Below, in pieces: positions 4,793 through 60,135 of a stretch of 60,135 nucleotides of DNA; position 1 is the stretch's first letter; each line of letters starts with the position of its first letter. The notes beneath the pieces are model-generated. The model made no database searches, was not told where the DNA came from, and was given only the letters and a program-made list of their open reading frames with translations. A program made the translations under genes and the position numbers. Source of the DNA: Aliiroseovarius marinus (lineage in GTDB: Bacteria > Pseudomonadota > Alphaproteobacteria > Rhodobacterales > Rhodobacteraceae); NCBI RefSeq assembly GCF_004360145.1, contig NZ_ML178719.1, forward strand, positions 1,570-61,704, given 5' to 3'.

Positions 4793-5916
4793 GCACCGAT
4801 CCCGACGACATCCCACAGCCCGACCGGATCGAAGGCGCCCCGCATCCGCGTGAGGCGACCCAGCTGATCGGACAGGACGCCGCGGAACAGGCGTTTTTGT
4901 CGGCCTATAACTCGGACCGGATGCACCACGGCTGGCTGATTTCCGGCCCGCGCGGCGTCGGCAAAGCGACATTGGCATGGCGCATCGCGCGCTTCCTGTT
5001 GGCCACCCCACCCGATGACGGCGGCATGTTCGCGGCCCCTGCCCCGGACACGTTGGACATTTCGCCCGACCACCCGGTCGCTCACCGGATTGCGGCCCTG
5101 TCGGAACCCGGCCTCTTCCTGCTGCGCCGTCCATGGGACGAAAAAGCCAAGCGCCTGAAGGGCGAGATTACGGTGGACGAGGTGCGTAAGCTGAAAAGCT
5201 TCTTTGCTCTGTCCTCGGCCGGTGGTGGGCGCCGCGTGGTGATCGTCGATGTGGCGGACGAGATGAACACCAACGCCGCCAACGCGCTGTTGAAACTCCT
5301 GGAAGAACCGCCCGAGGGTGCTGTGCTCCTGCTGATCAGCCACCAACCCTCGCGCCTTCTGCCCACGATCCGCTCTCGCTGCCGCGAGTTGCGTCTGCCT
5401 CCCTTGACGCCGGACGCACTGTCACAGGTCATGGCAGGGCTGGATGAAACGCCATCAGTGGACGAGGTTCTGCGTCTGAATGAGTTGGCCGCTGGATCCG
5501 CAGGCGATGCCCTACGCCTTTTACACCTGAACGGCTTGGGCACCTATGGCGACTTGGTCCAGATCTTTCAAAACCGCGATTTCGACCGCCCCCGTGCGTT
5601 GAAACTGGCAGAAAGCGCGGCCGGCAAAGCCAATGCCGAGCGCTATGCGCTGATCCTGCATCTGTTTGACCTGTTTCTGGCCCGACTGGCCCGCCACGGG
5701 GCCGGGTTTCACCCAGCGGCCGAGGCCGCGCCGGGCGAAGCTGCTTGCCTTGCGCGCCTATCGCCCCACTCCACTGCGGCGCGCTCTTGGGCCAGCCTGC
5801 AACAGGAATTGTCGGCCCGCGCAAGCCATGGACGGGCGGTGAACCTTGACCCGGCTGCGCTCATCCTTGATATGGTTTTCAAGATCAACGACACGGCCGT
5901 GAAATTGGCGGCCTGA
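4789..5916 (+). CDS. holB: DNA polymerase III subunit delta'
   Basis: Protein of 375 residues, part of the clamp-loader complex. AAA+ fold with Walker A-like G-P-R-G-V-G-K-A-T at 53-61, the segment A-N-A-L-L-K-L-L-E-E-P-P typical of delta', and a sensor region I-R-S-R-C-R. It overlaps tmk by four bases and is followed after 16 bases by tatD. The delta' subunit is a structural stator in the loader and need not hydrolyse ATP, although this Walker A looks largely intact. Confidence 0.95.
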   Translation: MSTDPDDIPQPDRIEGAPHPREATQLIGQDAAEQAFLSAYNSDRMHHGWLISGPRGVGKATLAWRIARFLLATPPDDGGMFAAPAPDTLDISPDHPVAHRIAALSEPGLFLLRRPWDEKAKRLKGEITVDEVRKLKSFFALSSAGGGRRVVIVDVADEMNTNAANALLKLLEEPPEGAVLLLISHQPSRLLPTIRSRCRELRLPPLTPDALSQVMAGLDETPSVDEVLRLNELAAGSAGDALRLLHLNGLGTYGDLVQIFQNRDFDRPRALKLAESAAGKANAERYALILHLFDLFLARLARHGAGFHPAAEAAPGEAACLARLSPHSTAARSWASLQQELSARASHGRAVNLDPAALILDMVFKINDTAVKLAA

Positions 5917-49526: not shown

Positions 49527-50162
49527 ATGGTACAGGAAATCATAGAACTCACGACATCAAGCGCGCCGGCGACTGGCGCGCGTTTTAACGAGGCAAAATC
49601 TGTGCCGCCAGAATGTATCGGTTATTCCGACCAAACCCATTGGATGATCGCCATCCGCGACAATCAGGACCGCGAGGCATTTGCAAAGCTGTTTGATTAC
49701 TTCGCACCGCGCCTGAAGGGTTTCATCATGAAATCCGGGACAAACGCGGCCCAAGCCGAAGAGATCGTACAGGATGTGATGCTGACGGTCTGGCGCAAGG
49801 CCGCGCAGTTTGATCCGCATCGGGCGCAGGTCTCGGCGTGGATCTATCAGATTACGCGGAACCGCCAGATCGACATCACGCGCAAGGAAAGCCGGCCCGT
49901 CCCCGAGGAGCTGAAGGAAGATCCGGGAAGCGAGGCGGATGCCAGTCAAGTTGTCGGGCTTGAACAAGAGGCAGGACTGCTGCGACAGGCCCTCGCCAAT
50001 CTCAAGCCGGAGCAGCGCGAGATCATCGAAAAGGCCTATCTGGGCGAGCTGACGCATCAAGAAATCAGCGCCCAAACTGGCCTGCCACTGGGAACCATAA
50101 AATCACGAATACGACTTGGAATGGAACGACTGAGACACGAGCTGAAGGACTTAAAACAATGA
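49527..50162 (+). CDS. rpoE: ECF sigma factor RpoE (ChrR-controlled group)
   Basis: Protein of 211 residues if read from ATG 49527. Since the promoter predicts transcription start at about this base, the mRNA would be leaderless; an internal GTG at 49602 with GAGG upstream (186 residues) is a good alternative. Region 2 has F-D-Y-F-A-P-R-L-K-G-F and A-E-E-I-V-Q-D-V-M-L-T-V-W; region 4 has L-T-H-Q-E-I-S-A-Q-T-G-L-P-L-G-T-I-K-S-R-I. In Rhodobacter this sigma factor answers singlet oxygen. Joined to chrR by ATGA. Confidence 0.93.
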   Translation: MVQEIIELTTSSAPATGARFNEAKSVPPECIGYSDQTHWMIAIRDNQDREAFAKLFDYFAPRLKGFIMKSGTNAAQAEEIVQDVMLTVWRKAAQFDPHRAQVSAWIYQITRNRQIDITRKESRPVPEELKEDPGSEADASQVVGLEQEAGLLRQALANLKPEQREIIEKAYLGELTHQEISAQTGLPLGTIKSRIRLGMERLRHELKDLKQ

Positions 50163-50794
50163 GCGCCGTGACCCATCATATCCCCGACGCGATGCTGGCC
50201 GCCTATGCCGCCGGTACGCTGCCCCATGCTTTCGCCGTGGTCGTCGCCAGCCATGTTTCGCTTTGCGACCACTGCCGCGTGGCCCTTGCTGCGCATCAAA
50301 CCGTGGGCGGTGTGGTCCTTGAAGACAGTGACGCCGTGCCGGTGTCGTCGTCGCTGAAGGACAACCTGTTTGCCCAGTTGGACGCGCCTTTCGTCCCCGA
50401 ACCCGTCTATGATCGCTCGGGCATCTATCCCGGTCCGGTGATGGAGGCCCTTCAGGGCCGCGCGCTGAAATGGAAGACGCTTGGGATGGGTGTACGTCAG
50501 GACATTCTGACCGAAGATGCGCATGGATCGGTGCGTCTGCTGTATATTCCACCCGGGCAGGCGGTACCGGATCACGGCCATAACGGGCTCGAGATGACCT
50601 TGGTGCTGCAGGGCAGCTTCAGTGATGAGACCGGGCAGTTCGGGGTCGGCGACGTTGAAATCGCGGATGAAGATCTTGAGCACACCCCGATCGCCGACGC
50701 AGGCGATCCCTGTATCTGCCTTGCCGCGACGGATGCACGACTGCGCTTCAACGCCTTCCTGCCACGTATTCTGCAGCCAATTTTCCGCATCTGA
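50159..50794 (+). CDS. chrR: Anti-sigma factor ChrR
   Basis: Protein of 211 residues. The N-terminal zinc anti-sigma domain has H7, H32, C36 and C39, the same spacing as the zinc ligands of Rhodobacter sphaeroides ChrR. The C-terminal cupin carries H139, H141, E145 and H175, matching the second zinc site. It holds RpoE inactive and releases it under singlet oxygen or certain peroxides. Every ligand is conserved, so the switch is probably functional. A strong terminator follows. Confidence 0.95.
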   Translation: MSAVTHHIPDAMLAAYAAGTLPHAFAVVVASHVSLCDHCRVALAAHQTVGGVVLEDSDAVPVSSSLKDNLFAQLDAPFVPEPVYDRSGIYPGPVMEALQGRALKWKTLGMGVRQDILTEDAHGSVRLLYIPPGQAVPDHGHNGLEMTLVLQGSFSDETGQFGVGDVEIADEDLEHTPIADAGDPCICLAATDARLRFNAFLPRILQPIFRI

Positions 50795-50892: not shown

Positions 50893-50920
50893 TGATCCGG
50901 CGACACTTCCCCTGCGTAAC
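50893..50920 (+). promoter_or_regulatory. Sigma-E-type promoter of the fasciclin gene
   Basis: TGATCC (50893-50898), 18-base spacer, TAAC (50917-50920). Exact -35 hexamer and spacing of the RpoE consensus, 60 bases upstream of the fasciclin ATG. Confidence 0.82.
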
Positions 50921-50979
50921 CTCCATACGAACCACAGATACATCTCGCGCCACACGCGCATCAACATGGAGAAGTCCTT

Positions 50980-51495
50980 ATGAAAACCGCCCTTAAATCT
51001 GCCGCCGCAGCCGCCGCAATTGCCCTGTCTGCAGGCGCCGCCACTGCCGATACGATCGTCGACATCGCCGCCGGCGACGAACGTTTCTCGACCCTCGTCG
51101 CTGCCGTTCAGGCCGCTGGTTTGGCCGAAACCCTGTCCGGCCCCGGCCCCTTCACCGTCTACGCCCCGGTCAATGATGCGTTTGCGGCCCTTCCTAAAGG
51201 CACCGTGGACAACCTGCTGAAGCCTGAAAACAAAGCTCAGCTGACCAACGTGCTGCTGTATCACGTCGATGACCGCAAGCTGACCGCGGGCATGATCCCC
51301 GCCGGATCGAACTACTTCAAACCGGTCCTGGCCAGCGAACGCCTGTGCATCACCGCAGGCTCGGACGGCGTGATGATCGCCGATGGTACGGGCGAGATGG
51401 CAAATGTGATCATTGCTGACATCATGGCCGACAATGGCGTGATCCACGTGATCGACAAGGTTCTACTGCCGGGCACCCGCCCTGCCTGCCATTAA
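50980..51495 (+). CDS. Secreted fasciclin-domain protein
   Basis: Protein of 171 residues. Signal peptide of about 23 residues (Ala-rich, cleavage near A-T-A). The rest is a single FAS1 domain with F-S-T-L-V-A-A-V, G-P-F-T-V-Y-A-P-V-N-D-A-F-A and the terminal G-V-I-H-V-I-D-K-V-L-L-P. FAS1 proteins mediate adhesion or matrix contact; the role here is unknown, but the upstream promoter places it in the RpoE stress response. GGAGAAG precedes the ATG. Confidence 0.92.
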   Translation: MKTALKSAAAAAAIALSAGAATADTIVDIAAGDERFSTLVAAVQAAGLAETLSGPGPFTVYAPVNDAFAALPKGTVDNLLKPENKAQLTNVLLYHVDDRKLTAGMIPAGSNYFKPVLASERLCITAGSDGVMIADGTGEMANVIIADIMADNGVIHVIDKVLLPGTRPACH

Positions 51496-51521: not shown

Positions 51522-51550
51522 GGGCGCCTTGGGAACAAGGCGCCCATTTT
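51522..51550. terminator. Terminator between convergent fasciclin and SDR genes
   Basis: GGGCGCCTT (51522-51530) and AAGGCGCCC (51537-51545), then ATTTTATTTT on the plus strand. It mainly terminates the fasciclin transcript. Confidence 0.85.
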
Positions 51551-52274
51551 ATTTTCCGCGGTAGACCAGAATGTCCGGAAGATAGGCCAGAAGCCACATG
51601 AACCATGAAAACGGCGCGGGAAAATCGGTGCGAAACCGCCGCTTAGTCATGGCGCGCAGCACACGGGTTGCAGCAGCCTCGGGCTTCATCAGCATCGGCA
51701 TCTTGAAGTCGTTCTTCGCAGTCAGGCGCGTCTCAATGAAACCGGGATTAACCAGACGGACCGTCACGCCCGTGTCTTTCAAATCAAAACGCATGGTCTC
51801 GGCCAGACTGACCAAGGCGGCCTTGCTGGCGCCATAGCCGATTGCGGCGGGCAAGCCGCGATAGCCCGCAAGCGATCCCACAAGGGTGACGTCGCCTGCG
51901 CCGCGCGCAACGAAGTCCGGAACGACCTCGCCCAAAACCCGCATCGCGCCGGTGAAGTTCACGTCACACATGGCCAACGCGGCGGCGCTGTCCCATTCGG
52001 TCGCGCGCATCGGGGTATAGGCGCCCGCGTTGTAGATCACGCCATCAATCGTGCCGACCTGAAGCGCGGCGGCGCGTACGGCGGTCAGATCTGTGACATC
52101 CAGCGGCAAGGCGCGTGCGTTCGGCAGACCTTCGCAAAGGCTTTCCAACCGGTCTGCATTGCGGGCCGAGAGGATCAGATGCGCGCCTTCATCGCTGAGT
52201 TGCTGGGCCAGAGCACGCCCCAACCCCTCGCTTGCGCCAACAAGCCAGAAGGTTTTGCCTGAGAAGTGGGTCAT
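51549..52274 (-). CDS. Short-chain dehydrogenase/reductase
   Basis: Protein of 241 residues. Rossmann fold with G-A-S-E-G-L-G (NAD(P) loop), N-A-G strand and the catalytic Y-G-A-S-K with S-L in V-G-S-L-A-G. Closest in style to SDRs found with the Cfa-like lipid operon in proteobacteria. The likely substrate is a fatty-acyl or lipid intermediate, inferred only from context. ATGA overlap with the DUF1365 gene upstream. Confidence 0.88.
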   Translation of the reverse strand: MTHFSGKTFWLVGASEGLGRALAQQLSDEGAHLILSARNADRLESLCEGLPNARALPLDVTDLTAVRAAALQVGTIDGVIYNAGAYTPMRATEWDSAAALAMCDVNFTGAMRVLGEVVPDFVARGAGDVTLVGSLAGYRGLPAAIGYGASKAALVSLAETMRFDLKDTGVTVRLVNPGFIETRLTAKNDFKMPMLMKPEAAATRVLRAMTKRRFRTDFPAPFSWFMWLLAYLPDILVYRGK

Positions 52275-53035
52275 TTGTTCAGCGCTCCCCCATCAGACAC
52301 AAGTTGTTCTGCGGGCGGTTGTTTCTTCAGGAACGGCGCACGTTTCAGATAGAGGATGGCCGCCTGCCAGTGGATCAGCGCAACGACCCGCGCCGCCCCA
52401 AGCGGACGGCGCACTGCGGCCCACAGCAACGATCCGCTGGTGGCCTTCTTGCGCTTTCCAGCAAGGGTCGCCAGCACGCCTTGATCTCCGTTTCGATAGT
52501 CGATCCGGATGTTCACCGCATCGTCGGTCAGGCCGAAATTGAAGTGATACTGCCCCTCGATCTTCTGGAAGGGCGAAACATGCATCAGCTTGCGCGCCGT
52601 CAGGCGATCCTTCGCGTCGATCGGCCGGAAATCCTCGTGCGCGCAGACATAGCAATGGCGCTGGCCGAAGGTGCTGTTGACCTCGGCCACAAACGCGCGC
52701 GGCGTGCCATCCACAAGCGCCACCCAGAAGCTGACCGGATTAAAATGGAACCACAGAAAGCTGGGCTGCGTCAGAAGCAGCAGCTCGGCCCCTTCGGGAT
52801 CAAATCCACGCTCTTCCAGCACCTCGCGAAACCACGCGACACCGCGCCCGTCATCGCGCGGTCCGCCATGGCGGCGATCCCAGATCGACCAGAGATTCCA
52901 GCGATTGCGCGACAAAAGCCACGGGGTATCCTTTTCGGACAGATCCGTCAGAACGAAGTCCACCCCATAGGTGAACGCGTTCTTCAAAGAGCCCCTGCGA
53001 GCATGATGGGTTTTGGCTTGGATATGACTGATCAT
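52271..53035 (-). CDS. DUF1365 family protein
   Basis: Protein of 254 residues. Starts with H-A-R-R-G-S-L-K-N-A-F-T-Y-G-V-D-F-V, contains W-F-H-F-N-P-V-S-F-W and a C-terminal P-L-G-A-A-R-V-V-A-L-I-H-W-Q-A, all DUF1365 signatures. These proteins occur with a COG2907 flavoprotein and a Cfa-like methyltransferase and are thought to take part in membrane-lipid modification; the chemistry is not known to me. A sigma-E-like promoter on this strand ends about ten bases before the ATG, so its leader is very short or absent. Confidence 0.9.
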   Translation of the reverse strand: MISHIQAKTHHARRGSLKNAFTYGVDFVLTDLSEKDTPWLLSRNRWNLWSIWDRRHGGPRDDGRGVAWFREVLEERGFDPEGAELLLLTQPSFLWFHFNPVSFWVALVDGTPRAFVAEVNSTFGQRHCYVCAHEDFRPIDAKDRLTARKLMHVSPFQKIEGQYHFNFGLTDDAVNIRIDYRNGDQGVLATLAGKRKKATSGSLLWAAVRRPLGAARVVALIHWQAAILYLKRAPFLKKQPPAEQLVSDGGALNK

Positions 53036-53044
53036 GATACTTAT

Positions 53045-53072
53045 CCTACGCGCGCGGGCGCACGCCGGATCA
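53045..53072 (-). promoter_or_regulatory. Sigma-E-like promoter of DUF1365-SDR
   Basis: On the minus strand TGATCC (53072-53067), 18-base spacer, TAGG (53048-53045). Perfect -35 and spacing; the -10 has G for A at its third base. Confidence 0.65.
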
Positions 53073-53100
53073 TATTATTTTGCAAACATTGCGTTTTTTG

Positions 53101-53128
53101 TGATCCAGCCCCGTACCCCGGCCGTAAT
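53101..53128 (+). promoter_or_regulatory. Sigma-E-type promoter of the flavoprotein-methyltransferase operon
   Basis: TGATCC (53101-53106), 18-base spacer, TAAT (53125-53128), 32 bases before the flavoprotein ATG. Back to back with the leftward promoter at 53045-53072. Confidence 0.82.
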
Positions 53129-53159
53129 CCCTGCATAACAAACGCGAAAAGGGGTTGGC

Positions 53160-54503
53160 ATGTTCGATCAAACACAGGGACAGCGAAAGAGAATTGCAAT
53201 CGTCGGGGGTGGCATTTCGGGCCTCTCCGCCGCCTACTATCTGTCCCCCTACCACGACGTCACCCTGTTTGAGGCCGCCCCTCGCCTGGGCGGGCACGCC
53301 CGCACCGTTATGGCAGGCAAGAATGGCGATCAGCCGGTCGACACGGGCTTTATCGTGTTCAACTACGCCACCTACCCGTTCCTGACCCAGCTGTTTCGCG
53401 AGCTTGATGTGCCCGTCATCAAAAGCGAGATGAGCTTTGGGGCCAGCATCGACAATGGGCGTCTGGAATACGGTCTGAACACCCTGCGCGCCATCACTGC
53501 GCAGAAAAGCAACCTCCTGCGCCCCCGATATTATCGCATGATCGCCGACATCCTGCGTTTCGGAAAACGTGCCGAGGCCGCCGCGACTGACGACGACAAA
53601 ACCATCGGGGATCTGGTGGACGAGCTGGGCCTGAGCCGGACCTTTCGCGACGACTATTTGATGCCGATGTGCGGTGCGATCTGGTCCACCCCTGTGGCCG
53701 AGGTCGACGAATTCCCTGCAAAATCTCTGGTCCGCTTCTTCCGCAACCACGCGCTTCTCGCCGGTACAGGCGAGCATCAGTGGTGGACCGTCAAAGGCGG
53801 CAGCATCGAGTATGTCCGCAGGCTGGAAGCCGCTTTGATCGCGCGCGGGGTCACCTTGCGCACCGGCACCCCGGTGGAGAGCGTGACGCGCAGCGCCTTT
53901 GGCGACAGCCTTGTGGCAGAAGGCGCGCCGCCTCAGCCCTTTGACGAACTCATTCTAGCCTGCCATTCGGATCAGGCGTTGGCCATTCTGGGAAGCGACG
54001 CCCGCCCAGACGAGGTAGCAGCCCTTGGCAGCATCCGCTATCAGCCCAACAAAGCCGTCCTGCATTGCGACCCCGCCCAGATGCCCCGCCGCCGCGACTG
54101 CTGGTCCAGCTGGGCTTATCGCTCGCAGAATGGGGCCATCGGCGTCACCTATTGGATGAACCGTCTGCAGAACATTCCCGAAGACGATCCGCTGTTCGTC
54201 ACCCTGAACCCGTCGACCGAGATCCCTGCCGACGCGATCTATGACGAGGTGGAATTTGCCCATCCCGTCTTTGACCGCGCCGCGTTGAAGGCGCAGCAGG
54301 ACATCCGCGCCATGCAAGGCAACAACAACACCTGGTTTACCGGCGCCTGGAACCGTCACGGGTTCCACGAAGACGGCATCGCCAGCGCCATGCGCATCGT
54401 GCGCGCCCTGAACAACCGCCACACCACCAAAGGAGAGCCCCATGCGATTTGCGGACAAGAAACTGAAGTCACAATTCCTGTCGACCTGCGCGCGTCTGCA
54501 TGA
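53160..54503 (+). CDS. FAD/NAD-dependent oxidoreductase (COG2907), UfaD-like
   Basis: Protein of 447 residues. Dinucleotide fold at the start (I-A-I-V-G-G-G-I-S-G-L-S-A-A-Y) followed by G-L-L-like R-L-G-G-H-A-R-T; amine-oxidase / desaturase-type flavoprotein. In Rhodobacter sphaeroides a sigma-E-dependent flavoprotein in the equivalent gene set (UfaD) takes part in desaturating the methylated acyl chain on the way to furan fatty acids. Same gene neighbours and promoter type support an equivalent role here, by context only. Its last 62 bases overlap the next gene. Confidence 0.82.
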   Translation: MFDQTQGQRKRIAIVGGGISGLSAAYYLSPYHDVTLFEAAPRLGGHARTVMAGKNGDQPVDTGFIVFNYATYPFLTQLFRELDVPVIKSEMSFGASIDNGRLEYGLNTLRAITAQKSNLLRPRYYRMIADILRFGKRAEAAATDDDKTIGDLVDELGLSRTFRDDYLMPMCGAIWSTPVAEVDEFPAKSLVRFFRNHALLAGTGEHQWWTVKGGSIEYVRRLEAALIARGVTLRTGTPVESVTRSAFGDSLVAEGAPPQPFDELILACHSDQALAILGSDARPDEVAALGSIRYQPNKAVLHCDPAQMPRRRDCWSSWAYRSQNGAIGVTYWMNRLQNIPEDDPLFVTLNPSTEIPADAIYDEVEFAHPVFDRAALKAQQDIRAMQGNNNTWFTGAWNRHGFHEDGIASAMRIVRALNNRHTTKGEPHAICGQETEVTIPVDLRASA

Positions 54504-55599
54504 CGGCCAACTGACCCTACGCACCCCGGAAGGCGAACGCTTTCAGTTCGGCACATCTGGCCCCGAGGCCGAGATGGTGATCCGCGACTGGTCTGCCGTG
54601 TCTGCGCTGGCCGCGCATGGTCAGGTCGGGCTGGGCGAGGCGTATGTGCAGGGCCTGTGGGATACGCCCTCGATCGAAGGGCTTGTGGCGCTCGCGATGC
54701 GCAACCGCGACCAACTGGGCGCGTTCGACAAAGCCAGCCCCTTCAATCAGGCGAAATTCCGTCTGGTCGATACGATCCTACGCGCCAATTCGCGCCGTGG
54801 ATCGCGCAAGAACATCCGCTCGCATTACGATGTGGGGAACGAGTTCTACGCGCTGTGGCTGGACGAAGGGATGACCTATTCGTCGGGCATTTTCGACACG
54901 GGCGATAACGATCTTTCCCGTGCCCAGAAGAACAAGAATGACCGGGCGCTATCGCGTCTCAGCGATGGGGCGCGGACGCTGGAAATTGGCTGCGGCTGGG
55001 GCGGGTTTGCAGAGGCTGCCGCCGATGCAGGCCGAGACGTGACCGGCGTGACCATCTCGCGCAATCAACACAACTACGCCGACAGCCGCCTTGACGGTCG
55101 TGCGGATATTCAACTGCGCGACTACCGCGACATTGAAGGCCAATATGACAACATCGTCTCGATCGAGATGATCGAAGCTGTGGGGGCGCGCTATTGGCCC
55201 AGCTATTTCTCGGTTCTGAAAAATAAGCTGGCCGAAGGTGGTCGTGTACTGTTGCAGGCCATTACCGTACAGGACGCGTTCTTTGACACCTACAAGACGT
55301 CCTCGGACTACATCCGCCAATACGTCTTTCCGGGGGGCATGTTGCTGTCTGACGCGGTGATCGCGGATCAAGCGGGCCGTGCGGGCCTGAAGGTCAACGA
55401 CAACCACGCCTTTGGCCAAGACTATGCCAAAACCTGCCGCATCTGGTCCGAACGTCTGGTCGCACGCAAACTCAAGATCACCGAGCTGGGCTATGGCGAG
55501 GCGTTCTTCCGCAACTGGCAATACTACCTCGAAATCTGCGCGGCATCCTTCGCCGTGGGCCACACAAATGTTGTGCAAGTGGAGCTGGCCCATGCTTAG
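54442..55599 (+). CDS. Cfa-family SAM methyltransferase, UfaM-like
   Basis: Protein of 385 residues. GGAGAG precedes the ATG at 54442. Class I methyltransferase with L-E-I-G-C-G-W-G-G-F (SAM loop), N-I-R-S-H-Y-D-V-G-N-E-F-Y, G-M-T-Y-S-S-G and I-E-M-I-E-A-V-G, as in cyclopropane-fatty-acid synthases. In the sigma-E setting of Rhodobacter the homologous enzyme (UfaM) methylates the double bond of vaccenoyl chains, giving a branched unsaturated acid. It may also be a true cyclopropane synthase; the context favours the first. Confidence 0.85.
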   Translation: MRFADKKLKSQFLSTCARLHDGQLTLRTPEGERFQFGTSGPEAEMVIRDWSAVSALAAHGQVGLGEAYVQGLWDTPSIEGLVALAMRNRDQLGAFDKASPFNQAKFRLVDTILRANSRRGSRKNIRSHYDVGNEFYALWLDEGMTYSSGIFDTGDNDLSRAQKNKNDRALSRLSDGARTLEIGCGWGGFAEAAADAGRDVTGVTISRNQHNYADSRLDGRADIQLRDYRDIEGQYDNIVSIEMIEAVGARYWPSYFSVLKNKLAEGGRVLLQAITVQDAFFDTYKTSSDYIRQYVFPGGMLLSDAVIADQAGRAGLKVNDNHAFGQDYAKTCRIWSERLVARKLKITELGYGEAFFRNWQYYLEICAASFAVGHTNVVQVELAHA

Positions 55600-56086
55600 G
55601 CCCGTGCTTCTTTGCCTGCTGATCATGGTGGGCCACGCCGTTAACGCCTCGCCGGTCAATTCGGCTCTGCCGGATGCCGAACTGCGGGGCGAGGCAACGC
55701 TGCGGTTCCTTGGCTTTCCGCTCTACAAGGCGCGGCTGTTCACTCCGTCGGGTGCGCGCCTTGACTGGAACAAGGACTTCGCGCTGGAACTGACCTATCT
55801 GCGCAACTTGACCGCTTATGACCTTGTGGAAGGCACCATGCGAGAATTCGCGCGCACCGGCGGCACCCTGCCCGTGCGCGCACAGCTGAATCAGTGTTTC
55901 TTCGATGTGCGCAAAGGCGACCGTTATACCGCAGTCTCGGATGTTCCTAACACGTTGACCTTCTGGCGGAATGACACCCGGACCTGCACCCTGTCGCATC
56001 CCCAGATCAAGGCCCGCTTTATGGGGATCTTTCTGGGCGACAACACACGCTCGCGTCGCTTCACCAGCCTACTGCGGAGCGACTGA
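55592..56086 (+). CDS. Chalcone-isomerase-like periplasmic protein
   Basis: Protein of 164 residues with a signal peptide ending near V-N-A (residue 18). Contains A-T-L-R-F-L-G-F-P-L-Y-K-A-R-L-F-T and L-E-L-T-Y-L-R-N, the chalcone-isomerase-fold pattern of bacterial homologues. In such folds the role is usually fatty-acid binding rather than isomerisation. Expected in the periplasm, where it might carry a modified acyl chain; inferred. Overlaps its neighbours by eight and one bases. Confidence 0.8.
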   Translation: MLRPVLLCLLIMVGHAVNASPVNSALPDAELRGEATLRFLGFPLYKARLFTPSGARLDWNKDFALELTYLRNLTAYDLVEGTMREFARTGGTLPVRAQLNQCFFDVRKGDRYTAVSDVPNTLTFWRNDTRTCTLSHPQIKARFMGIFLGDNTRSRRFTSLLRSD

Positions 56087-57312
56087 TGACCTATCCGCGT
56101 GTCAGTCTTTATGCCCTGATGCTGGCTGCTGCTGGCATACCGCTATATATCCACCTGCCCCGGTTTGCCTCGGTGAACCTTGGGCTGGGGCTTGGGGCGG
56201 TGGGGGCAATTCTGCTGGCGATCCGTCTGGTTGACCTTGTCCAAGACCCGCTGATCGGCTGGGCCATCGACCGCTGGCCGCGCGCGCAAAGCGTCTTTGC
56301 CGTGACCGCCGCGCTTGGTCTTGCGGTGGGCTTCCCCCTGCTCTTCACCCTTGCCCCAGGTCCGAGTGTTACGACCGAGCTCGTCCTGATCCTGATCCTG
56401 CTGTTTTCCGCCTACAGCCTTGGGATGATCCTGCTTTACGGCCGCAGCGCGACATTGGCAAACAGCCCAACCCCGCGCGCGCTGATGACACTGGCCGCGT
56501 ACCGAGAGGTCGGCATGTTGGGCGGCGTGATCCTTGCGGCAATGGCCCCGGCGCTTCTGGCCGCGATGGGTGCCCGCGCGCAGGGCTATCCCAGCTTCGG
56601 CGTGTTTCTAGGCGTGCTGGCCGTCGCCACCGCGCTTCTGACCCTTCCGATCTGGCGCCGCACGCCCCTTCCCGGCGATCGCCTGAGCTTTCAGGGTCTT
56701 GTTCAGGCCGGTGCGCTGAAACTGCTTGCGCTGGCCTTGGTCAACAGCCTGCCCGTCGCGATCACGTCGACGCTGTTTCTGTTCTTTGTCGAGGACCGCC
56801 TGCAGCTTCCTGATCGGGCCGGACCGCTCTTGATCCTGTTCTTCCTCAGCGCCGGGGTCAGCGTGCCGCTCTGGACCCGCATCGCCCATGCCGTCGGCCC
56901 GAAACGCACACTGCTGATCGCCATGCCGCTGGCCATTCTGGGCTTTATCGGTGCGGCATTTCTTGCGCCGGGCAACCTGTTCGGGTTCGCGGTGATCTGC
57001 GTGGCCTCCGGCGCAGCCCTCGGCGCGGATATGGTGATCCTTCCCGCGATGTTTTCGGTCGTGCTGACGCGGGCGGGGCTGAAACCTTCGCTGGCCTTTG
57101 GGATCTGGTCATTTGCCGGGAAGCTCGGGCTTGCGCTGGCGGCCTTCGCGACCTTGCCGCTGCTCGAACGAAACGGCTTTACCCCCGGCGGCATCAACAG
57201 CGCAGACGCTCTTGCCGCGCTGAATATCTCGTACGCCATTATTCCCTGCATTCTGAAACTCGGCGCTCTGGCCATGGTGCTTGCGCTGCCTACAGAGGAC
57301 CAAACCCCATGA
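56086..57312 (+). CDS. MFS transporter
   Basis: Protein of 408 residues with about twelve hydrophobic segments. Motifs V-D-L-V-Q-D-P-L-I-G-W-A-I-D-R-W between helices 2 and 3 indicate the GPH/sugar:cation-symporter-like branch of MFS. Its cargo is unknown. Location inside the sigma-E lipid operon suggests lipid or lipid-precursor movement, but this is a guess. TGATG overlap upstream and ATGA downstream. Confidence 0.88.
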   Translation: MTYPRVSLYALMLAAAGIPLYIHLPRFASVNLGLGLGAVGAILLAIRLVDLVQDPLIGWAIDRWPRAQSVFAVTAALGLAVGFPLLFTLAPGPSVTTELVLILILLFSAYSLGMILLYGRSATLANSPTPRALMTLAAYREVGMLGGVILAAMAPALLAAMGARAQGYPSFGVFLGVLAVATALLTLPIWRRTPLPGDRLSFQGLVQAGALKLLALALVNSLPVAITSTLFLFFVEDRLQLPDRAGPLLILFFLSAGVSVPLWTRIAHAVGPKRTLLIAMPLAILGFIGAAFLAPGNLFGFAVICVASGAALGADMVILPAMFSVVLTRAGLKPSLAFGIWSFAGKLGLALAAFATLPLLERNGFTPGGINSADALAALNISYAIIPCILKLGALAMVLALPTEDQTP

Positions 57313-57863
57313 AACTCCTCACAGCTTTCCTTGTCTTGGTCCTTGTGGCCATCGTCGCCCGAAACATATTCTTCAGCTTCAAGGCGCAGGCCCCTGCGGA
57401 TTATGCCGACACCGGACCCGCCATATCATTGACCGAACACCTGTCCGGCGAAATCCTGTCCGAGGGCCTGATCTATGGCCCCACCGGTCGCGTCACCAAC
57501 AGCTTCACCGCCCGCATGGTCGGCCAGTGGGAGGGCAAAACCGGCACCCTGACCGAGGACTTCACCTATTCCAACGGCCGCACGCAAGCGCGCAAATGGT
57601 TCCTGACCTTGGGTGACAACAACACCTTCACTGCGACCGCCGATGACATCGTCGGCACAGCACAGGGCACGGTGTCCGGGTCGACCATCAAGATGACCTA
57701 TGACATCGTCCTGCCGGCCGAGGCCGGGGGCCACACGCTCAGCGTGACCGACTGGCTCTACATGACCGAAAGCGGCGTGATCCTGAACCGCTCGGAAATG
57801 CGCAAATTCGGCATCAAGGTGGCTGAACTGGTGGCCACCATGCGGCCCGATCCAACCCGTTGA
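57309..57863 (+). CDS. DUF3833 family protein, membrane-anchored
   Basis: Protein of 184 residues. An N-terminal hydrophobic helix (5-18) without a lipobox anchors it. The body has L-S-G-E-I-L-S-E-G-L-I-Y-G-P-T-G and L-T-E-D-F-T-Y-S-N-G and the R-K-W pattern of DUF3833. Paralogue of the next gene. Probably faces the periplasm; function unknown. Confidence 0.82.
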   Translation: MKLLTAFLVLVLVAIVARNIFFSFKAQAPADYADTGPAISLTEHLSGEILSEGLIYGPTGRVTNSFTARMVGQWEGKTGTLTEDFTYSNGRTQARKWFLTLGDNNTFTATADDIVGTAQGTVSGSTIKMTYDIVLPAEAGGHTLSVTDWLYMTESGVILNRSEMRKFGIKVAELVATMRPDPTR

Positions 57864-57890
57864 TCCCAAACGAAGCAGGAGGACAAGATC

Positions 57891-58433
57891 ATGCTGACCG
57901 GAAAGAAACGCATATTCGCAGCGCTGGCTGTGGCAGCTGTGACCTTATCCGCCTGCGCAGGACGGCCGGATCTGCAAGATCCCCCGCTGTCGGATCGCGA
58001 ACTTAATCTTGAGGAGTTCTTTGAAGGGGAATCCGTTGCCCGCGGTCAGTTTCAAGACCTGTTTGGGACGGTGCAACGCCGGTTCGATGTGGAAATCACA
58101 GGCGACTGGGATGGCCAGACGCTGACCTTGGTCGAAGATTTCACCTATGACGACGGCGAAACCGAACAGCGCATCTGGACGCTTGAAAAGACCGGCGAGG
58201 ACACATGGCAAGGCACCGCTCCGGGGGTGATTGGCACCGCAACAGGACGCGAGAATGGCGACACCTTCAATTGGGCCTATCGCATTGATCTACCTGTCAG
58301 AAAGGGCACGATGCGTGTCGATTTCGATGACTGGATGTGGATGCTGAGCGATGACCGCGTGCTCAATCGCGCCTACGTCTCGCGATACGGTGTGCGCATT
58401 GGTGAAGCGATCATCGTGTTTGAGAAAAAGTAA
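57891..58433 (+). CDS. DUF3833 family lipoprotein
   Basis: Protein of 180 residues with a lipobox L-S-A-C (Cys22), so it is an exported lipoprotein. Shares F-x-G-E-S-V-A-R-G-Q-F-Q-D, L-V-E-D-F-T-Y-D-D-G and W-M-W-M-L-S-D-D-R-V-L-N-R with its neighbour and with DUF3833 proteins found in the same operon in other proteobacteria. AGCAGGAGGA precedes the ATG. It ends seven bases from the stop of the converging adenylation gene. Confidence 0.87.
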   Translation: MLTGKKRIFAALAVAAVTLSACAGRPDLQDPPLSDRELNLEEFFEGESVARGQFQDLFGTVQRRFDVEITGDWDGQTLTLVEDFTYDDGETEQRIWTLEKTGEDTWQGTAPGVIGTATGRENGDTFNWAYRIDLPVRKGTMRVDFDDWMWMLSDDRVLNRAYVSRYGVRIGEAIIVFEKK

Positions 58434-58440
58434 GCAGGTC

Positions 58441-60135
58441 TTACGCCCCGCGCACCCTCAGCGCCACGTCGATCGAGCGTGCCAAATCGCCAACGGTATC
58501 TGGCTCGAAATACTCTCCGTGATCGCCGGGGATGATGTCGAAACTGGGGGCTGCGTGAAGTTTTTGCCATTCGGCGACCGGATCGTCGCGGGTGAAGAAC
58601 GGATTGAAGCGATGGCTTTCGCGGCCGAACACCATGTGAAGTGGCCCCGCATAGGGCGCTAAAGGCTCTGCTTCCAGTAAGATCAGATTGGCCGGGTGGT
58701 CGCTCTGATCGTTCCACACCCGCACCATTCGTTCCGCAATGGGACCCGCGCCGCAATTCCCGCCAAACCCTGCCAGATCGGCTTGGCCTGCGTCTTTTAG
58801 GCAGCTCAGATAAAGATCCGCCAGATCATCAATATAGTCCTGCCGAAGCGACCGGTCTCCAAGCACAAAGTTCAACGAGCGAAGCGCGATCAAGGGCTGG
58901 TCGGGATCCAACCCCGCCGCCAAGGCAACGGGTTCGCGCGTATCGTTGAAGCACCAGACCAAAGGCGGGCGCGATCCAGTCAGGTTAAACCCGTACACCG
59001 GCAATCGGTCTGACAAGCGGGTTCCCGGCCAGTCCCGTGTCATCTGATTGAGACGCTGCACGATATCCTCGAACGCCACGCCATCGGGCAACGGCCGGAC
59101 CTCATTGGCGTCATTGACTGGCCTGAGTTTCTTGGCTGCGGCGCGCAGCCGTCTTTGAACCCCTTTCGCAATGCGTTGCACTGTCCATCTGGGGGCAGGT
59201 TTCGGGGGCTGAGGCGTGACGGCGACGTCGCGCTTCTGTCGGATCATCGCCGCCATGCCTGCGACCGTTGCGCCCTGTTCAAAAATCACATCCGTCGCAA
59301 GCCAGATCCCTGTGACCTCCTCGATCGCCCCCAAAAGCCGCATGGCCTGCAGGGAATCCCCGCCTGCTTCGATGAAATTGGCGTTGGGGGATACGGCGTC
59401 CACGCCAAGGCATTCGGCCCAGAGCGTGGCAATGGTGCGTTCAAGCCCGGATTCCGGGGCCGGTGTCGGGTGAGTGCTTGGATCGGGATCGGTGGCCTCC
59501 GACAGCAGCCCATAATATTCGGGCGCCCCGATACGGTCCGGCTTGGTTGTCTTTCCCAGCGGAATATCCTTGGCGAAGAATAACGGGGTCGGCAGTTTGA
59601 ACGCGGCCAGACGCGTGCGCAGATGCGCCTTGATGTCATCCTCGGTCACGTCCTGACCGGACTTTGGCACCACAGCTGCTGCCGCGACCTGCCCAAGTGT
59701 CCGGTGCGGCATGGCAAAACTAATACTGTCCTGCACGGCCGGGTGCGCGCGGATCGCCTCCTCGATCTCGAAGGGCGAGATCTTTTCGCCGCCCCGATTG
59801 ATCAGCTCTTTCTTGCGCCCAACCAGTTCCAGCTGCCCATCCTCGTCCAGCTGGCCCATATCGCCGGTGTAGAACCACCCGTTACGAATGGATGCAGCGG
59901 TCGTTTCGGGGTCATTGTAGTATTCCGAGAACAGGTTGGTGCCACGCACCGCAATCTGACCCAGCGTGTTGGGCGGAAGGGCGGCGCCGTCGTCGTCATG
60001 AACCTCAAGCGCATAATGCAGCGACACGCCCACTTTGCCCGGAATGCGGCGCGCCGGGGGAAGCGGCGAGATGGTGATCAGCCCCGTTTCCGTCGATGTC
60101 AAGGGCGGCGCAAAAGTGGGCCAGTAGGGCGGCGT
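58441..60135 (-). CDS. NRPS-like adenylation - carrier - thioesterase protein (5' end outside window)
   Basis: The frame is open to the window edge, so only the last 564 residues are seen. Order: C-terminal part of an acyl/aminoacyl-adenylating domain (W-F-Y-T-G-D-M-G-Q-L, V-G-R-K-K-E-L-I-N-R-G-G-E-K-I-S, and a later K-T-T-K-P-D-R near the end of the domain), a phosphopantetheine carrier with G-G-D-S-L-Q-A-M-R, a linker and an alpha/beta-hydrolase thioesterase. The thioesterase nucleophile elbow reads G-F-G-G-N-C-G-A-G, so a Cys replaces the usual Ser; His is in P-G-D-H-G-E-Y. The product and substrate are unknown. It converges with the DUF3833 gene and shares no promoter with the sigma-E operon. 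Confidence 0.83.
   Translation of the reverse strand, partial: TPPYWPTFAPPLTSTETGLITISPLPPARRIPGKVGVSLHYALEVHDDDGAALPPNTLGQIAVRGTNLFSEYYNDPETTAASIRNGWFYTGDMGQLDEDGQLELVGRKKELINRGGEKISPFEIEEAIRAHPAVQDSISFAMPHRTLGQVAAAAVVPKSGQDVTEDDIKAHLRTRLAAFKLPTPLFFAKDIPLGKTTKPDRIGAPEYYGLLSEATDPDPSTHPTPAPESGLERTIATLWAECLGVDAVSPNANFIEAGGDSLQAMRLLGAIEEVTGIWLATDVIFEQGATVAGMAAMIRQKRDVAVTPQPPKPAPRWTVQRIAKGVQRRLRAAAKKLRPVNDANEVRPLPDGVAFEDIVQRLNQMTRDWPGTRLSDRLPVYGFNLTGSRPPLVWCFNDTREPVALAAGLDPDQPLIALRSLNFVLGDRSLRQDYIDDLADLYLSCLKDAGQADLAGFGGNCGAGPIAERMVRVWNDQSDHPANLILLEAEPLAPYAGPLHMVFGRESHRFNPFFTRDDPVAEWQKLHAAPSFDIIPGDHGEYFEPDTVGDLARSIDVALRVRGA

Follow-up and report, generated by a model that had tools for sequence, protein, structure and literature searches.

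The locus described here lies in a stretch of 60,135 nucleotides from Aliiroseovarius marinus (contig NZ_ML178719.1; the whole stretch is called the window). It is a divergent set of genes of the furan fatty acid (FuFA) type, and the identity of its core, the enzymes UfaM, UfaD and UfaO, is secure by homology. The explanation which we consider probable for the locus as a whole has two parts: FuFA synthesis induced through sigma-E and the anti-sigma factor ChrR, and an accessory limb of lipid carriers in the envelope. For the carrier function of the limb our confidence is moderate. The regulon as such is already known; what is new is the variant layout, the evidence on the DUF3833, chalcone-isomerase-like (CHI-like) and MFS proteins, and a proposed residue code for UfaM.

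Homologues of UfaM, UfaD and UfaO are all present together in the locus. Passages of Lemke (2020; PMC7380195) report that ufaM, ufaD and ufaO suffice for formation of a monomethyl furan fatty acid, and that the oxygen of the furan is derived from O2 and inserted by UfaO, a DUF1365 protein. Three proteins of the locus, not two, therefore have an assigned step; the original prediction had credited UfaM and UfaD and counted the DUF1365 protein among those without one. Its view of the locus as furan-fatty-acid-type and governed by sigma-E is borne out by the presence of the Ufa trio and of rpoE-chrR. According to the same passages, R. sphaeroides keeps its fatty acid profile when RSP1087, RSP1088 or RSP1089 is deleted in frame, and for this reason their counterparts are regarded as accessory. 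From gene order and printed annotations we infer that RSP1087, RSP1088 and RSP1089 correspond to the short-chain dehydrogenase/reductase (SDR), DUF3833 and MFS genes, respectively. The predicted model of UfaO (pLDDT 87) has a beta-rich fold with a long helix at the end and matches nitrobindin-like barrels weakly; thirteen polar positions are conserved, each in 93% or more of 63 aligned rows.

We propose that a singlet-oxygen-type sigma-E/ChrR switch would induce the complete pathway. UfaM would methylate cis-vaccenoyl chains on phospholipids, UfaD would then desaturate them, and UfaO would insert O2 and thereby close the furan ring. Experiments in R. sphaeroides and R. palustris have shown these steps; in the window we assign them from protein family and gene order. 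The accessory limb would be dispensable for synthesis and would consist of a cation-coupled MFS_2 protein, a helix-anchored DUF3833 barrel, a secreted CHI-like protein, a DUF3833 lipoprotein and the SDR. It may bind fatty acids or lysolipids and move them between the membranes, and could either deliver furan acyl lipids outward or retrieve oxidized ones. A furan ring which traps singlet oxygen yields an ene-dione, and the SDR may reduce this product.

The strict sigma-E motif TGATCC-N16-CGTAD occurs three times in the window (50893+, 53072- and 53101+), whereas 300 windows simulated with a first-order Markov model contained 0.05 on average and never more than 2. The genome holds 16 such sites and none for a reversed-pattern control; the 21 genomes of the genus hold 4 to 16 each, the control giving 0 to 2. 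Not all of the 16 are promoters, as some fall within likely genes or at a distance from them. A looser form, GATCC-N18-TAR, has seven occurrences in the window, against 1.5 on average in shuffled sequence and with none of 100 shuffles reaching seven; four are at rpoE, the fasciclin gene, ufaO and ufaD and three at other places. From the end of the motif to the start codon there are 11 nt for ufaO and 33 nt for ufaD. The ChrR-family anti-sigma gene adjoins the ECF sigma gene, and promoter-like sites of the form TGATCC-N16-CGTA stand at the putative target genes, which is the pattern of an ECF11 RpoE-ChrR regulon. The sigma-E control claimed earlier thus stands, with rpoE-chrR close by and strict motifs at both divergent units. 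PMC4336711 prints RpoE2 sites of S. oneidensis that share the form (TGATCC-N16-CGTAA), so the promoter type of the window is an ordinary ECF11 one. These genes had already been published as part of a core ECF11 regulon (Dufour 2008, as related in passages of PMC6852236 and PMC5507510).

The leftward unit consists of ufaO and the SDR gene and the rightward unit of ufaD, ufaM, the CHI-like gene, the MFS_2 gene and two DUF3833 genes, with a gap of 124 bp (53036-53159) between them; rpoE, chrR and the fasciclin gene are located 2-4 kb to the left (Table 1). Genes on the + strand overlap or nearly so, the widest gap being the 27 bp 5' of DUF3833-B, in which a sigma-E -10 was not seen. Each side is taken to be one operon because adjacent coding regions overlap or nearly overlap. 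The start of the CHI-like gene is better set at ATG 55592. The genes named in the original prediction were found where it put them and with fitting families (PF01593 for the flavoprotein to which it had given the label COG2907), apart from the SDR gene, which at 51549-52274 (-) falls just outside the range it had given.

Table 1. Genes and sigma-E-type sites of the locus, in window coordinates
Feature	Position	Strand	Basis
Sigma-E-type near-consensus site at rpoE, AGATCC-N18-TAA	49493..49519	+	motif scan
rpoE, ECF sigma factor	49557..50162	+	Pfam/NCBIfam; start is one of several in-frame options, ORF (open reading frame) opens 49506
chrR, anti-sigma factor	50159..50794	+	TIGR02451, 203 bits vs cut-off 124.5
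Sigma-E promoter-like site, fasciclin gene	50893..50919	+	motif scan
Fasciclin-domain protein, export-type N-terminus (by eye)	50980..51495	+	Pfam
SDR, position of RSP1087	51549..52274	-	family match, synteny
UfaO (DUF1365), furan-forming oxygenase	52271..53035	-	PF07103 E 1e-63; literature
Sigma-E promoter-like site, ufaO-SDR unit	53046..53072	-	motif scan
Sigma-E promoter-like site, ufaD-ufaM-CHI-MFS-DUF3833 unit	53101..53127	+	motif scan
UfaD-type FAD-dependent fatty-acyl desaturase	53160..54503	+	PF01593 E 1e-22; synteny
UfaM-type S-adenosylmethionine (SAM) methyltransferase (CMAS)	54442..55599	+	PF02353 E 2e-75; Ser/Ala/Gln in the places of E. coli Cfa residues 139/240/266
CHI-like protein, signal-peptide-like N-terminus	55592..56086	+	Chalcone_3 20.0 bits, below 27-bit cut-off
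MFS_2 cation symporter, without galactoside-binding aspartates, position of RSP1089	56086..57312	+	MFS_2 E 3e-37
DUF3833-A, calycin-type barrel (predicted), N-terminal membrane-type helix, position of RSP1088	57309..57863	+	DUF3833 E 3e-53
DUF3833-B, paralogue of lipoprotein type with lipobox LSAC and Ala at +2	57891..58433	+	DUF3833 E 6e-58

The candidate UfaM is assigned by its family, by a gene order like that of R. palustris and by a residue comparison with Cfa. In a midpoint-rooted tree of 49 CMAS proteins (33 operon-linked, 15 unlinked and 1 near an operon) the operon-linked genes group with unlinked UfaM-like genes, separate from five Cfa-like proteins (support 100/100). The bicarbonate ligands of E. 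coli Cfa are given in a passage of PMC11387697 as Glu239, His266 and Tyr317. Window UfaM and E. coli Cfa (6BQC) both belong to the CMAS family and have Glu239 and Tyr317 in common, but in the window protein His266 is replaced by Gln, His240 by Ala and Cys139 by Ser. Positions 139 and 240 are presumably also of interest in Cfa. Gln266 and Ala240 are found in all 33 operon-linked rows and in 19/19 further loci. At positions 139/240/266 the unlinked rows have Ser/Ala/Gln (10), Cys/His/His (4) or Ala/His/Gln (1), and the single row merely near an operon has Cys/His/His. Window UfaM does not fit a canonical cyclopropane fatty acid synthase, as the bicarbonate ligand His266 is replaced by Gln; loss of the His which holds bicarbonate would account for a methyl-alkene product instead of a cyclopropane. 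The genome has a second UfaM-like gene (L188, C13), also Ser/Ala/Gln, and no sigma-E site was found in the 5.6-kb stretch around it. The five members of the genus without UfaO also have CMAS genes with similar scores, and the one read (L189) is Ser/Ala/Gln. This suggests that the two UfaM-like genes are a housekeeping copy and an induced copy. A table in PMC7074977 lists RSP_2144 as 'CfaS'.

DUF3833 is predicted to form an antiparallel barrel of about ten strands, and the model resembles the calycin or FABP-nitrobindin fold. A lipobox is present in DUF3833-B but absent from DUF3833-A, which has a membrane helix at its N-terminus. The earlier expectation of secreted and lipoprotein members thus holds for some of the proteins but not for one of the two DUF3833 proteins. 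By the sorting rule of E. coli, lipoproteins without Asp at +2 go to the outer membrane. A lipobox without Asp at +2 was seen by eye in window DUF3833-B and in 20/20 genes from outside the genus, so that DUF3833-B has the sequence features of an outer membrane lipoprotein. Among 249 genomes, DUF1365 is present in 51 of the 54 with DUF3833 vs 22 of the 195 without it, and the co-occurrence holds also where the genes are unlinked.

The CHI-like protein was followed in 19 loci of a phylum sample (17 from other classes), which were chosen mostly for closeness of DUF3833 and DUF1365. In 11 of them the CHI gene immediately precedes DUF3833, in 4 only the MFS gene stands between the two, and the other 4 have neither. 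The CHI-DUF3833 pair of L286, L293, L294 and L295 is encoded on the strand opposite to the ufaD-O-M block or at a distance from it. At the 27-bit cut-off of Chalcone_3 (PF16036) five of five tested relatives pass, and the window protein with 20.0 bits does not. In L281 a secreted protein of 237 aa without a Pfam match (5184-5897, -) precedes DUF3833 in the usual place of the CHI-like gene, and in L282 an ORF of 259 aa has this place.

A profile built from 23 operon MFS proteins was run against PDB. MFSD2A lysophospholipid symporters came first (7e-25) and MelB came next (2e-21), nearly tied. The MelB cation site, Asp55, Asp59 and Lys377, is kept in 23/23 proteins, as in MFS_2 cation symporters. 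The place of Asp124 is occupied by M, T, S, A or Q in all 23, and none of them has an Asp that could stand for Asp19 within helix I at window columns 8-23. The set does not fit a MelB-type galactoside symporter, both galactoside aspartates being absent from all 23. A passage of PMC8329300 states that conservation of the galactoside residues is confined to MelB orthologues, whereas phospholipid carriers have the cation site as well. The missing aspartates thus argue against a MelB-like sugar site but fall short of proving lipid transport. MFSD2A, a sodium-dependent lysophosphatidylcholine symporter, has the MFS_2 family and the cation site in common with the window MFS; the sequences are distant and the likeness is one of kinship only.

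The arrangement in other Rhodobacterales was surveyed with the best 80 of 371 relatives of DUF3833-A, which gave 52 full-length loci. The usual order is ufaD-ufaO-MFS-DUF3833-SDR adjoining rpoE-chrR. All 52 loci have rpoE, chrR, ufaD, ufaO and SDR, 44 have the MFS gene, one has a CMAS gene (Cfa-like by tree), and at the cut-off used none has a CHI-like gene. The operon loci of the window's genus have SDR and ufaO in inverted orientation and include ufaM and CHI. The two DUF3833 genes are neighbors in some genomes of the genus, and in others DUF3833-B has a different location; 5 of the 21 genomes are without both DUF1365 and DUF3833, one of the five being 87% complete. Because the locus of G025 (L090) and those of other classes share ufaD, ufaO, ufaM and CHI (with MFS or DUF2878) plus DUF3833, the gene content of the window appears to predate the form seen in R. 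sphaeroides. It should be noted that Enemella evansiae is an actinobacterium; the record with this title (L108) is the same contig as G022, placed in the window's own family, and either the title or the genome is probably mislabelled or contaminated.

The closest known system is RSP1087-1091 of R. sphaeroides, which shares UfaD, UfaO, sigma-E control and the proximity of rpoE-chrR, and by position or annotation MFS, DUF3833 and SDR. There ufaM is separate (RSP2144), whereas in the window ufaM and the CHI-like gene are inside the operon. The window further differs in the inversion of ufaO-SDR to a divergent unit, the extra lipoprotein-type DUF3833 and the UfaM-like gene L188. In R. palustris (RPA2569-2571; UfaM, UfaO, UfaD) ufaM is next to ufaD and ufaO as in the window, according to a passage of PMC7380195; R. 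palustris makes dimethyl FuFA via FufM (RPA0924). Locus L283 of another class contains photolyase (by eye), SnoaL-like, SDR, UfaD, UfaO, UfaM, DUF2878, CHI and DUF3833. It has the Ufa enzymes and CHI-DUF3833 in common with the window, but the window operon is without photolyase, SnoaL-like protein and DUF2878; the MFS gene between CHI and DUF3833 is found also in L277-L280. For loci of the L283 type a comparison is offered by the RpoE2 operon of S. oneidensis, which contains phrB and cfa according to a passage of PMC4336711.

A more specific version of the carrier explanation is a dedicated trans-envelope shuttle, in which an MFS_2 lysophospholipid symporter, an inner membrane DUF3833, a periplasmic CHI-fold carrier and an outer membrane DUF3833 lipoprotein would exchange lipids with the outer membrane, delivering furan acyl lipids or taking up oxidized ones; with it goes the view that UfaM makes a methyl-branched alkene and no cyclopropane because it has lost the bicarbonate His. 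In this complete form we find it unlikely. The accessory genes could instead be catalytic, with DUF3833 or the CHI-like protein as cyclases or isomerases acting on oxidized furan or another lipid and the MFS protein moving a small product. The spirocyclase OssO and chalcone isomerase elsewhere provide an analogy, but the three Ufa proteins suffice for FuFA in vivo, single deletions of RSP1087-1089 did not alter the profile, and FuFA is made on phospholipids whereas the accessory proteins carry export signals, so that this reading is quite improbable.

That the accessory genes are hitch-hikers in the regulon, with unrelated roles in envelope stress such as an osmolyte or sugar symporter or generic lipoproteins, would agree with the lack of CHI and MFS in some or all of the Rhodobacterales relatives and with the annotation of RSP_1089 as 'sugar/cation symporter, GPH family' in a table of PMC7074977. 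The tie of DUF3833 to DUF1365, unlinked cases included, and an MFS protein without the MelB galactoside aspartates make it even more doubtful. The least probable reading places the accessory proteins in sigma-E signalling, where they would present or sense FuFA or oxidation products and aid turnover of ChrR. Passages of PMC6852236 state that full sigma-E activation in R. sphaeroides needs the FuFA-making genes, and PMC5507510 lists RSP_1088, at the DUF3833 place, among core-regulon homologues; PMC6852236 also states, however, that cells without other regulon members show normal activation and ChrR proteolysis, and ChrR is cytoplasmic whereas the accessory proteins look exported. The transport or scavenging branch of the original prediction stays hypothetical, now with better support.

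Other sigma-E-type sites and neighboring genes were also recorded. The fasciclin gene with its own site (50893-51495) lies between chrR and the SDR gene and is found in most loci of the genus; a table in PMC7074977 gives RSP_1409, a fasciclin gene, together with rpoE-chrR and RSP_1087-1091. A site at the start of an ORF resembling ferrochelatase hemH by eye (L225, G008 C1:278798) has near-identical site strings in G006, G011, G012 and G016 (sites only), and hemH2 is among the S. oneidensis RpoE2 candidates in a passage of PMC4336711. In G000 a strict site stands 184 bp upstream of an ORF resembling by eye metK, SAM synthetase (L223, C6:220202), and could match the SAM demand of UfaM. A secreted protein of solute-binding type has a sigma-E-type site 48 bp upstream of it (L224, C8:95218), with similar strings in G002, G003, G004 and G015, and sigma-E-type sites at L220, L221 and L222 precede three small, apparently exported proteins without assigned role. 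Convergent with the operon is a large ORF (58441-60102, -) resembling by eye a non-ribosomal-peptide-type AMP-binding/carrier protein.

FuFAs are membrane fatty acids which are destroyed by singlet oxygen and are made by enzymes acting on existing phospholipids. Their transit to or from the outer membrane is not treated in the passages of the FuFA papers cited here. The proposed Ser/Ala/Gln residue code would be a simple means of distinguishing UfaM-like methylases and cyclopropane synthases, and the regulon genes without a fatty acid deletion phenotype become candidate lipid carriers.
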